In this document: positions 7,463-30,031 of the stretch, piece after piece | How the letters are laid out: each line of letters starts with the position of its first letter | Numbering within the stretch: the first letter of the stretch is position 1 | From: an uncultured Burkholderiales bacterium | Lineage (GTDB): Bacteria > Pseudomonadota > Gammaproteobacteria > Burkholderiales > Burkholderiaceae_C | Direction: 5' to 3' | DNA: 64,000 bases | Assembly: GCA_903830725.1 (NCBI GenBank) | Contig: CAIKVH010000048.1 | Location: 1 to 64,000, forward strand | Position numbers and translations under genes: made by a program | Notes under the pieces: model-generated | The model's input: the letters and a program-made list of their open reading frames with translations, nothing else | Databases searched by the model: none | Told to the model about the DNA's origin: nothing

Positions 7463-7493
7463 GACTAGAATAATTTAATACCGATTTTGATTT

Positions 7494-8396
7494 TCAATCT
7501 TTAGTTGAATATTTCTTGTCAAATTCAGCGACCCAGTCAAACCCCATCAGTTGAGAGAATTTCTGAAAATCGTAGATTGGCATATCTGCTTTATAGCTCG
7601 ATCCAGTCATTTTAAAGTGACTGTAAACTGATTCAAATGCGGCTCCAGCAGCCAAAAAAGCAGTTGTTGGGAAAATTGCTAATCTAAAACCCAATCTTTG
7701 AAGCTCAGCTTGACTAAGGACTGGGGTACGACCTCCATCTACCATGTTGGCAACCAAAGGGAGATCAAACGCTCTGCCGAGTTTCTCCATTTCTTCAACG
7801 GATTCCGGACTCTCTATAAAGAGCAGATCAGCCCCTGCTTTCGCATATTGCTCAGCTCGGCGCATCGCCTCATCTAGTCCGAGAGTTGTTCGTGCATCAG
7901 TTCTTGCAATGATCAAAAAATTCGGGTCCTCCCTGGTTTCAACAGCAACTCGAATTTTTTGAACCATATCTGAAGATTCGATAACCCTTCTTCCCAGCAT
8001 ATGTCCACATTTCTTGGGAAACTCTTGATCCTCTAATTGAATTGCGCAGGCCCCTGACTCTTCATAGCTACGCACTGTGTGCATAACGTTCAGTAAGCCT
8101 CCGTACCCAGTATCGGCGTCGCAGATTAGGGGAGTTTTTGTGATTTTTGCAAATTGAGAAACTCGGTTTAACATTTCTGTGGCCGTTGCAATGCCCGCGT
8201 CAGGTAGACCTAAATAGGAAGCCACCGTTCCGTAGCCAGTCATATAAAGGGCATCAAAATCTTGCAAGTCAGCCATCTTCGCCGAAATCATCTCAAACAC
8301 TCCTGGCGCAATGACCAGAGAGCCTGATCGAATTTTGGAGCTAAGAGCGACTCTTCTATCTTTAAAGGTTGGTGCTTTTTTATTCGGGGTAGGCAT
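7494..8396 (-). CDS. Isocitrate lyase / PEP mutase family enzyme
   Basis: This 300-residue enzyme belongs to the PEP mutase/isocitrate lyase superfamily, a TIM barrel that makes or breaks C-C or C-P bonds next to a carboxylate. It shows the family signature KKCGHMLGRRVI with the catalytic-loop Cys, the metal-binding DADTGYGG, and QLEDQEFPKKCG. Length and motifs fit the group that includes 2-methylisocitrate lyase, carboxyvinyl-carboxyphosphonate phosphorylmutase, dimethylmalate lyase and oxaloacetate decarboxylase. I chose the ATG at 8396 over an upstream TTG at 8438, because the added 14 residues are Pro/Lys-rich and unlike the family. It is divergent from a Bug solute-binding gene 158 bases away, so the two may act on the same di- or tricarboxylate. 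Exact substrate unknown. Confidence 0.85.
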   Translation of the reverse strand: MPTPNKKAPTFKDRRVALSSKIRSGSLVIAPGVFEMISAKMADLQDFDALYMTGYGTVASYLGLPDAGIATATEMLNRVSQFAKITKTPLICDADTGYGGLLNVMHTVRSYEESGACAIQLEDQEFPKKCGHMLGRRVIESSDMVQKIRVAVETREDPNFLIIARTDARTTLGLDEAMRRAEQYAKAGADLLFIESPESVEEMEKLGRAFDLPLVANMVDGGRTPVLSQAELQRLGFRLAIFPTTAFLAAGAAFESVYSHFKMTGSSYKADMPIYDFQKFSQLMGFDWVAEFDKKYSTKD

Positions 8397-25580: not shown

Positions 25581-25916
25581 TTACTGGGAAAGGTTCCAGA
25601 TCTGTGTTGAGCGCGCACCACTTCTGCAATAGGCAAGCACGGGCGTTTTAGCATTCTTAATAGTGTGTGCAAACTCCTTGACGAGCTCTTCAGTGAGTTG
25701 ACCGCTCGTGAAGGGGATGTTGAAAAACTCTAACCCCAATTTCTCGGCTGCAGCCTTTATCAAAGCGTGGCTGGGCTGGTCGGGGCCGCCTTCACCGTCA
25801 GGGCGATTACAGATAATAGTTTTAAACCCCTCAGATGCAATTTGCTCTAAATCCGAGATGGCGATTTGTGGGGCAGTTGCGAATGCAGGGGTGTGGGAGG
25901 TAATTTGAGCGCTCAT
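25581..25916 (-). CDS. TIGR01244-type sulfurtransferase/phosphatase-like protein
   Basis: This 111-residue cytosolic protein matches the TIGR01244 family, which has a dual-specificity-phosphatase-like fold and is often fused to metallo-beta-lactamase enzymes in sulfide metabolism. It shows the opening ATAPQIAISDLEQIASEGF, the ICNRPDGEGGPDQPSH segment around residues 36-50, and the active loop with nucleophile Cys97 and Arg102 (YCRSGARSTQIW). The loop length matches the rhodanese-type CxxGxR. Nearby genes do not indicate a partner. Confidence 0.85.
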   Translation of the reverse strand: MSAQITSHTPAFATAPQIAISDLEQIASEGFKTIICNRPDGEGGPDQPSHALIKAAAEKLGLEFFNIPFTSGQLTEELVKEFAHTIKNAKTPVLAYCRSGARSTQIWNLSQ

Positions 25917-25974: not shown

Positions 25975-27642
25975 TTAAGTTTTTAAGAATTGGGGGGAGC
26001 CTTGTATTAACTTCCAAAGCTCTGCCTCGCTGGGGGTCAAAAGATTTGCAAGTTTTTGCATTGTCTCAGTTGGCTCATGCTGGACCAAGATGCCGAGTTG
26101 GCGAATTCTTGATAATTTCTTGACGAAATGTTCTAGTGCTTGATCCGTATTGTCGGCAATTTCAAGCAGTGGCTGGGGAATTAGGTCCTCAGATATCTTG
26201 AACTCATATTGCACCTTGTCTATGATGCCTTTGAGTTGCTCTGGCGAAAGATTGAGACGTTTACCCTCATTCAATACAAATTCGTCTTGTAAATTTATTG
26301 AAAACCCCATTTTAAGTCTTTGATAAAGCGCAATAGAGAGGTTGTTTTTATCGGCGTAAAGTTCATCTGCAAAAGATGATGCTAATAATGCAGAAGGTAT
26401 TGCAAAAATACCAACACCAATAACGGCCATTAATATGGTCATGACTCGACCAACAGTGGTCAAAGGCGTAAGGTCACCGTAGCCAACCGAGCTCAGCGTG
26501 ATAACTGCCCAGTAAATCGAAGCGGGGATATTTTCGTACTTGTCTGGCTGACTGTCATGCTCCATTAGATAGGCTAAGCTAGCAGCCAATACAACCATCA
26601 GCATCATAATGAAAAGCGAAGCAGCTAAGATAGGAGTTTCACGAGTGAACACACGCTTTAGTACTGCAGTGGAGTTGTTTTGTTTTGTAATTTTCAGCAG
26701 CCTCATTAGTCTAAAGACTCTAAGGAAACGAAGATCAAATAGATGGTGTAAGAATAGTTCTAAAAAGAAGGGAATGATCGCTAGAAAATCGATGATGGAG
26801 GCAAATCTAAGGGAGTGTTTAACACGGCCGGAAAACCATTTCTTGAAAATCGGGTCTTCAACGCAGGAATATAGTTTAAGAAAATACTCAATACTAAATA
26901 AGCCGACAGCAATCGAGTCAATGATAATGAATTGTGTGCTTAAAAGGTAGTGTATTGACTCAACGGATTCAATGACAACGGCGATTACTGAGATGACTAC
27001 CCACCAAGCGATTAAGCGGTCAAACATCTCGTGAATTGCACCGCCGTATTCGCTTGGGAATACAACTGAATACATTTTTTGGCGAAAGGTTCTCTTTGCG
27101 TTCAAAGCCATGAATTCCTGGTAAGCAGGGATCAGCACTCTGAAGAGTTTTAACATTCTTAGCAATCGTAAAAATCTGAGAACTCTCAGATCTATGGGTA
27201 AGAATGCTTGAAAATAAAACGGTGCAACAGCCAAGAAATCAATGACTGCAAAGGGACTAAATACATATGCGGCCCTGGTAAAGCGTCGATTTTTGAACTC
27301 CTGGTCCTCGGGTGCGAGGTATAAACGTGTTAAGTATTCAATCGTAAAAACAATGACTGAGAAAACATCGAACACGTGAAAAAATTGTTCATGAGCTTGA
27401 AAAATTGCGGGTATGCGCTCAACAACCAGTGCAAATAGGTTGATGATGATTAAAAAACTGATCCATCCATCAATTTGCTGGTGCTTGTTATCCTCAATCT
27501 CAGGATCGAGTAAGTAGGTATATATTTTTTGGCGAACAGTTGAGCAACGCCCTAACGCCTCACTGAGCGTAAGGGGACTTGACTGGTTTGTAATAAGGGG
27601 CAGGGAACTCGGTGTTGAACTCATTATCAGTTGGGGAGCCAT
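25975..27642 (-). CDS. Potassium channel with two tandem voltage-sensor domains and one pore
   Basis: Numbering is from the ATG at 27642 (555 residues); the frame stays open to a TTG at 27690, and no start has a good ribosome binding site. The first sensor domain has S1 at about 59-76, S2 89-109, S3 127-144 and S4 151-170 with basic residues every third position (R153, R156, R159, R162, K165, R168). The second repeats this: S1 208-229, S2 238-258, S3 281-297 and S4 303-320 (R305, R308, R311, R314, K317, K320). The pore follows with S5 at 338-359, the filter TLSSVGYGD at 382-390 and S6 at 397-424. The two sensors resemble each other (FSIEYFLKLY versus FTIEYLTRLY; IIDFLAIIPFFLE versus VIDFLAVAPFYFQ), so they arose by duplication. 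The C-terminal 125 residues are helical and cytosolic. The usual Kv-like subunit has one sensor and six helices; this has ten. Confidence 0.88.
   Translation of the reverse strand: MAPQLIMSSTPSSLPLITNQSSPLTLSEALGRCSTVRQKIYTYLLDPEIEDNKHQQIDGWISFLIIINLFALVVERIPAIFQAHEQFFHVFDVFSVIVFTIEYLTRLYLAPEDQEFKNRRFTRAAYVFSPFAVIDFLAVAPFYFQAFLPIDLRVLRFLRLLRMLKLFRVLIPAYQEFMALNAKRTFRQKMYSVVFPSEYGGAIHEMFDRLIAWWVVISVIAVVIESVESIHYLLSTQFIIIDSIAVGLFSIEYFLKLYSCVEDPIFKKWFSGRVKHSLRFASIIDFLAIIPFFLELFLHHLFDLRFLRVFRLMRLLKITKQNNSTAVLKRVFTRETPILAASLFIMMLMVVLAASLAYLMEHDSQPDKYENIPASIYWAVITLSSVGYGDLTPLTTVGRVMTILMAVIGVGIFAIPSALLASSFADELYADKNNLSIALYQRLKMGFSINLQDEFVLNEGKRLNLSPEQLKGIIDKVQYEFKISEDLIPQPLLEIADNTDQALEHFVKKLSRIRQLGILVQHEPTETMQKLANLLTPSEAELWKLIQGSPQFLKT

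Positions 27643-30031
<2,389 letters not shown>

Follow-up and report, generated by a model that had tools for sequence, protein, structure and literature searches.

Two basic questions of voltage gating are how many sensors are required per pore and whether one sensor can influence the gate by way of another instead of an S4-S5 linker. Both are raised by a gene in the window, the whole stretch of 64,000 nucleotides from an uncultured Burkholderiales bacterium that was analysed here. A first-pass annotation had read its product as a channel with two voltage-sensor domains (VSD1 and VSD2) ahead of one pore and knew of no described channel with such a layout. Our search of the PMC literature likewise found no VSD-VSD-pore channel, although prior mention in subscription papers is possible. 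Judged from its sequence, the VSD-VSD-pore architecture of the protein is as good as certain.

Layout of the channel gene

The coding sequence of the tandem-sensor potassium channel (25975..27642) had been located exactly at the outset; its strand, which was not stated then, is the minus strand, the gene being read from 27642 to 25975. It begins with ATG and encodes 555 amino acids followed by a stop. Translation may in fact begin at an alternative start, 27624, since several orthologues carry a methionine at residue 7 or close to it (MSS...).

All features of the gene are given on the same minus strand. VSD1 (27103..27486, residues 53-180) was delimited by model helices and by a sequence match to solved voltage sensors; in the model, S1 spans residues 53-75, S2 85-112, S3 130-144 and S4 152-180. 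Its S4 (27139..27186) carries R153, R156, R159, R162, K165 and R168. The inter-sensor linker (27043..27129, residues 172-200) is presumably cytoplasmic, and its residues P172, F177, N181, R187 and K189 are invariant or nearly so (alignment A2). VSD2 (26677..27042, residues 201-322) has model helices at 201-225, 228-262, 280-297 and 304-321, and Kv structures align over residues 181-454. The S4 of VSD2 (26683..26730) carries R305, R308, R311, R314, K317 and K320. In the S4-S5 linker region (26638..26676, residues 323-335) a helix is predicted at 324-334, in the position of an S4-S5 linker. The pore domain S5-P-S6 (26311..26637, residues 336-444) was defined by Pfam Ion_trans_2 and by the model, in which the helices lie at 336-361 and 396-444 and the pore helix at 372-384; the selectivity filter TLSSVGYGD occupies residues 382-390 (26473..26499). 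The remaining C-terminal region (25978..26310, residues 445-555) is helical in the model, and searches of Pfam and NCBIfam gave no family of its own for it.

Pfam Ion_trans matches two stretches of the protein (E limit 1), and the residues that mark a working sensor, Glu in S1, Phe/Glu in S2 and Asp in S3, each occur twice. Ion_trans_2, the pore family, matches one stretch (residues 346-423, E 1.2e-15), in agreement with the single S5-pore-S6 bearing TLSSVGYGD that had been noted at first, and thus the chain does not have two pore domains. As in potassium channels, a filter of the TVGYGD type, here TLSSVGYGD, lies between two pore helices, and directly before S5 stands a sensor, VSD2, with periodic S4 basic residues and S2/S3 acids. 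The one sensor per pore of a 6TM Kv chain was not found; there are two sensors and ten predicted helices, and the protein is therefore a Kv variant rather than an ordinary member. With 52.9 bits against a curated score of 300, it also falls outside the hyperpolarization-activated NCBIfam family K_channel_Meth.

Evidence for two genuine sensors

Six lysines or arginines at i+3 spacing occur at exactly two sites in the protein, residues 153 and 305. Among 100,000 whole-protein shuffles, 23 had one such site and none had two. These sites and the model helices agree with the two S1-S4 blocks, each with six S4 basic residues, that the first-pass annotation had described. VSD1 and VSD2 are 35% identical over 134 residues (E 3e-19), in an alignment that includes the stretch before S1, and their local score of 205 compares with 38 +/- 8 and a maximum of 69 in 1000 shuffles that preserve composition and hydropathy. 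The similarity of the two blocks, from which a duplication within the gene had been concluded, is thus upheld; the duplication itself is not shown, VSD1 and VSD2 standing in separate clades whose joining is not rejected. Searched alone against the PDB, VSD1 matches 33 sequences at E up to 0.1 (best E 6e-5), and these include sensors from KCNQ2, Kv4 and NaChBac-type channels of solved structure. These matches and the model show a genuine-looking sensor in the first block, which could have turned out not to be a four-helix sensor at all.

The AlphaFold2 model has a mean pLDDT of 79.6, a pTM of 0.59 and ten membrane helices in 4+6 order; it is a monomer built from a 15-row alignment of which 3 rows cover VSD1, and it does not fix the packing of VSD1. 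An earlier AlphaFold-type model from four sequences had a pLDDT of 65. In ten-residue blocks, pLDDT is 78-91 over VSD1 (residues 51-180), 64-74 over the S4 of VSD2 and 63 at the filter. The S4 of VSD1 is modelled as one long helix (152-180), followed by a short helix (186-194) into S1 of VSD2. In structure comparison, VSD2 and the pore align with Kv4.2 (Z 15.2, rmsd 5.5 A, 244 residues), and also with other Kv and KCNQ chains and with bacterial MloK1. The fold search, which covered the families in its list, matched the full model over VSD2 and the pore, so that VSD1 was tested mainly by sequence. A similar picture is given by a profile of 37 tandem proteins, which matches 229 PDB sequences; in each of the best 60, the match is a single stretch that begins beyond VSD1, no earlier than profile position 174.

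Proposed mode of action

By analogy with Kv channels, four chains would form one pore, surrounded by eight sensors whose S4 segments hold 48 basic residues in total. The gate would be operated by VSD2, which, like a Kv sensor, is connected to S5 through a short linker helix. VSD1 would lie outside VSD2. Its S4 is predicted to continue as a helix and then as the conserved linker reaching S1 of VSD2, so that movement of VSD1 could bias VSD2. At the inner membrane of the bacterium, the response to voltage would then be expected to be steeper or to proceed in two steps. To this tetrameric Kv-type channel with eight sensors, in which VSD2 would drive the gate and VSD1 modulate it through the linker, we assign a rough probability of 0.6. 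We infer the tetramer, the conduction of K+, the driving role of VSD2 and the modulating role of VSD1 alike. That the protein represents a channel class with two functional sensors per subunit and eight per pore, coupled from VSD1 to VSD2 via the linker and answering voltage in two stages or unusually steeply, has in our estimate slightly better than even odds.

Conservation of the sensor residues

The distinct frames at 137 loci were classified by profile into 50 of sensor-sensor-pore, 108 of sensor-pore and 9 of sensor-only type, and all 50 frames classed as tandem have one pore. In the alignment of these 50 tandem proteins, the window gene included, 21 sensor positions were scored. The six S4 basic residues are complete in VSD1 of 48 rows, in VSD2 of 49 and in both sensors of 48; a search for homologues keeping both S4 series, which had been proposed as a check, thus found all twelve residues in 48 of the 50 aligned proteins. 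Invariant positions are E102, R106, D135, R156, R159 and R162 in VSD1 and E252, D285, R311, R314 and K317 in VSD2, and R153, K165, R168, R305 and R308 differ in one or two rows. Only 4 rows deviate at any of the 21 positions: the Gemmobacter homologue, at seven positions, with charges lost in both S4 segments; L116, with one charge of VSD1 lost (R168); L107 (E225); and the cut frame L105, where a gap falls on E75. In the subfamily of L039_5811 and similar proteins, the VSD1 S4 opens with a small insertion and an acidic residue, and the six basic residues are kept.

Conservation of the functional columns (37 rows) is 0.985 in VSD1 and 0.991 in VSD2, compared to 0.608 and 0.635 in the remaining columns of the respective domains, and none of 20,000 random column sets reached these values. 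Consensus identity is 0.651 for VSD1, 0.673 for VSD2 and 0.825 for the pore. By these measures, VSD1 is constrained about as much as VSD2. Median dN/dS is 0.05 for VSD1, 0.09 for VSD2 and 0.02 for the pore in the one ortholog set with dS usable for all 10 of 10 pairs; the other two of the three sets, that of the window gene among them, were saturated, with few usable dS values. The alignments strongly indicate that evolution retains both sensors.

It could be proposed that VSD1 has lost voltage sensing and serves in structure or assembly, as T1 and S0 do elsewhere. The existence of VSD1-less paralogues and the degenerate S4 segments of the Gemmobacter copy are in favor of this proposal, but a mere scaffold needs no charges, and their retention in VSD1, with all six present in 48 of the 50 proteins, argues against it. 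The sensor columns of VSD1 are also far more conserved than the rest of the domain. We therefore regard an assembly domain as improbable, if the least improbable of the alternatives to a modulating sensor.

Gene neighbourhood

Upstream of the window gene and divergent from it lies thiC with a TPP riboswitch (27957-28062). The next gene downstream, with the same orientation as the channel gene, encodes a BLH_phosphatase (window 25581-25916), and a CorA gene and a two-component system follow. The phosphatase and thiC are kept in five of five orthologous loci (L100, L102, L104, L109 and L111), and the CorA and two-component genes in four, L109 being without them; neighbours in these loci were recognised by sequence start, and Pfam was applied to the window genes only. 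A functional link of the BLH_phosphatase with the channel is possible.

A protein of about 200 amino acids with one apparent membrane helix precedes the tandem genes of a different group, to which the window gene does not belong. It stands before 23 of the 46 tandem genes whose upstream sequence was long enough, that of 4 of the 50 being too short; partners were counted where stop-to-stop frames overlap or lie at most 15 bases apart. Three members gave no match in a Pfam search, and Cys residues can be seen by eye after the helix (L040:10197-10853, L039:11924-12535, L009:4476-5000). This protein is a candidate auxiliary subunit.

Other arrangements were also observed around tandem genes. Conserved single-sensor channels with altered filters adjoin them at L010, L039, L107, L112, L114, L130-L134 and other loci. 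These filters are of the TITSGYGN/H type (16 listed frames) or the SGWGN/AGWGN type (12 listed frames), and their sequences suggest a changed selectivity. At L039, a DUF4337 membrane protein (7493-8113) sits between altered-filter channels and the second tandem gene. Head-to-tail pairs of tandem-sensor genes occur in three genomes (L098:602-3825, L103:4626-7840, L137:2547-5803).

A role mainly in heteromers with the cell's other channels, to which the additional sensor would bring asymmetry, would fit those related genomes in which tandem genes adjoin altered-filter channels or pair head-to-tail, and the window genome itself holds two further family members elsewhere. The window gene and its five orthologous loci, however, have no adjoining channel gene, and we consider a mainly heteromeric role quite unlikely.

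A possible permeation path through VSD1

Beside the modulating role preferred here, VSD1 could itself be a permeation path, for protons as in Hv1 or for cations of the omega type, coupled to the K+ pore. The domain has four helices of its own in the model, and isolated VSDs such as Hv1 conduct protons. Hv1 is marked by a selectivity Asp in the middle of S1 and by the S4 signature RxWRxxRxxN, but S1 of VSD1 reads FLIIINLFALVVERI, without a mid-S1 Asp, its S4 is without the signature, and no Hv1 is among the 33 PDB sequences matched by VSD1. The absence of these features argues against a proton path and leaves conduction through VSD1 with a slim chance.

Distribution of tandem-sensor channels

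Besides the window gene, the window genome contains another tandem gene, with 51-54% identity to the first, and a single-sensor paralogue, which makes three family members. Of 84 genomes from the window's genus, 81 gave a family match and 75 a match spanning both sensors, with 107 such matches in total. Of the 40 good genomes (completeness of 90% or more, contamination of 5% or less), 37 hold such a match and 3 do not. A stop was flagged in 14 of the 107 matches; of five looked at, four have the whole tandem frame open and one is truly split. At L106:4772-6439, a stop between VSD1 and VSD2 divides the tandem gene into a separate VSD1 frame and a VSD2-pore frame. An ordinary Kv channel given a false N-terminus by misassembly or gene fusion in a draft genome of 144 contigs has next to no probability and is refuted by the same layout in 75 of 84 genomes, including the single-contig G080 and G177, and in other genera.

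Outside the genus, the tandem was found only in three genomes from two other genera of the order, on one contig of a viral collection and on one Gemmobacter plasmid. In the order (399 genomes), the listed both-sensor matches outside the own genome were those in G442, G566 and G591. In the family sample (150 genomes), the listed ones were in the own genus only (G000, G080), and a match in G121 runs from residue 114 with one stop. In the samples of the class (369 genomes) and phylum (299 genomes; 398 with the Gemmobacter query), the matches listed from beyond the order cover VSD2 and the pore, with the exception of G1130 in the 398-genome sample, where the match runs from query residue 87 with one stop. 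As all these searches covered samples, and those of the order, class and phylum scored no more than 3-4 candidates per genome, rare tandems elsewhere are possible. Four long open frames (G739, G681, G1156 and G1152), checked for hidden tandems, all have a single sensor by profile.

The 72,556 plasmid records gave 8 matches. Two were opened; one is the Gemmobacter tandem and the other an Aristaeella channel with a single sensor. Coverage of the query is 33-35% in the remaining six. The tandem protein of the Gemmobacter aquarius plasmid (L096:3740-5215, WP_159082572.1) is annotated as 'ion transporter', and the S4 charges are partly lost in both of its sensors; its best match in the 398-genome phylum sample is the tandem family. 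None of 4 matches in 50,697 phage records covers 80% of the query. Viral contigs, scanned twice, yielded a total of 16 related loci, of which one is a tandem (L095). There, the tandem gene is located at the contig end beside phage-like genes (L095:1-6419), and the contig is probably host DNA at a prophage border.

Origin of the tandem and of VSD1-less paralogues

The sensor tree has 68 rows and 135 columns, flagged as few. In the IQ-TREE result, the VSD1 sequences of all tandem rows but Gemmobacter form one clade (100/97), and the VSD2 sequences, Gemmobacter included, form another (98/91) that also contains three single-sensor rows, namely two VSD1-less paralogues and the split gene L106. The placement of the two clades relative to single-sensor channels is not settled by this tree. 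A constraint uniting VSD1 and VSD2 passed without rejection (p-AU 0.563, or 0.237 when the Gemmobacter VSD1 is included), and placing the Gemmobacter VSD1 with the other VSD1s gave p-AU 0.336. In both FastTree and IQ-TREE, the VSD1 clade stands beside the single-sensor Aristaeella channel L097, with IQ-TREE support that is not strong (80/82); this adjacency is a hint of a fusion origin. Intragenic duplication is unproven as the origin, the two sensors lying in separate clades in both programs with their joining not rejected, and duplication and fusion are thus both compatible with the trees.

In a FastTree of VSD2 plus pore, all 16 of 16 tandem rows group with six single-sensor rows (0.98). 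VSD1-less paralogues occur in some genomes that also carry tandem genes. In the six that were aligned, homology starts near the VSD1 S4 or further on. A motif related to the inter-sensor one (N..R.xRQK) can be recognised plainly in four of them; L060 has a modified version, and L003, the VSD1-less paralogue from the window genome, a weak one. Such a start of homology and such a motif fit a secondary loss of VSD1; ancestral absence is also possible. Probably, the tandem arose once and some copies then lost VSD1. Judged from these paralogues, VSD1 is dispensable in some family members, and VSD2 with the pore is suggested to be a workable unit.

Comparison with known channels

The tandem channel, its VSD1-less paralogues and about 100 sequence variants make the role of an added sensor testable in small bacterial proteins. 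If the eight-sensor reading is true, the VSD1-less paralogues are natural controls, and the layout is a possible design for steeper or staged voltage control. In the parts of PMC7576140 and PMC13095418 that were available, no sensor-sensor-pore channel appears. The layouts that come nearest in the literature searched are those of TPCs and of the tandem Kv-like channels, 2 x 6TM, known from SAR eukaryotes.

With Kv channels (Kv4, Kv2, KCNQ and the bacterial relative MloK1), the protein has in common the S1-S4 sensor, the S4-S5 helix, the S5-P-S6 pore and a TVGYGD-type filter. Kv channels have one sensor, whereas here an entire extra sensor is placed ahead of it. The 2 x 6TM tandem Kv-like channels also have two sensors in one chain, but they have two pores, compared to the 4+6 layout with one pore of the tandem-sensor channel. 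TPC1 and TPC2 likewise carry two sensors per chain. TPCs have two pore domains per chain and are dimeric, in contrast to the one pore per chain found here. Hv1, VSP and TMEM266 are stand-alone sensors. Like VSD1, they are not directly joined to a pore; unlike them, the extra sensor described here is not separate but is joined to a second sensor and its pore.
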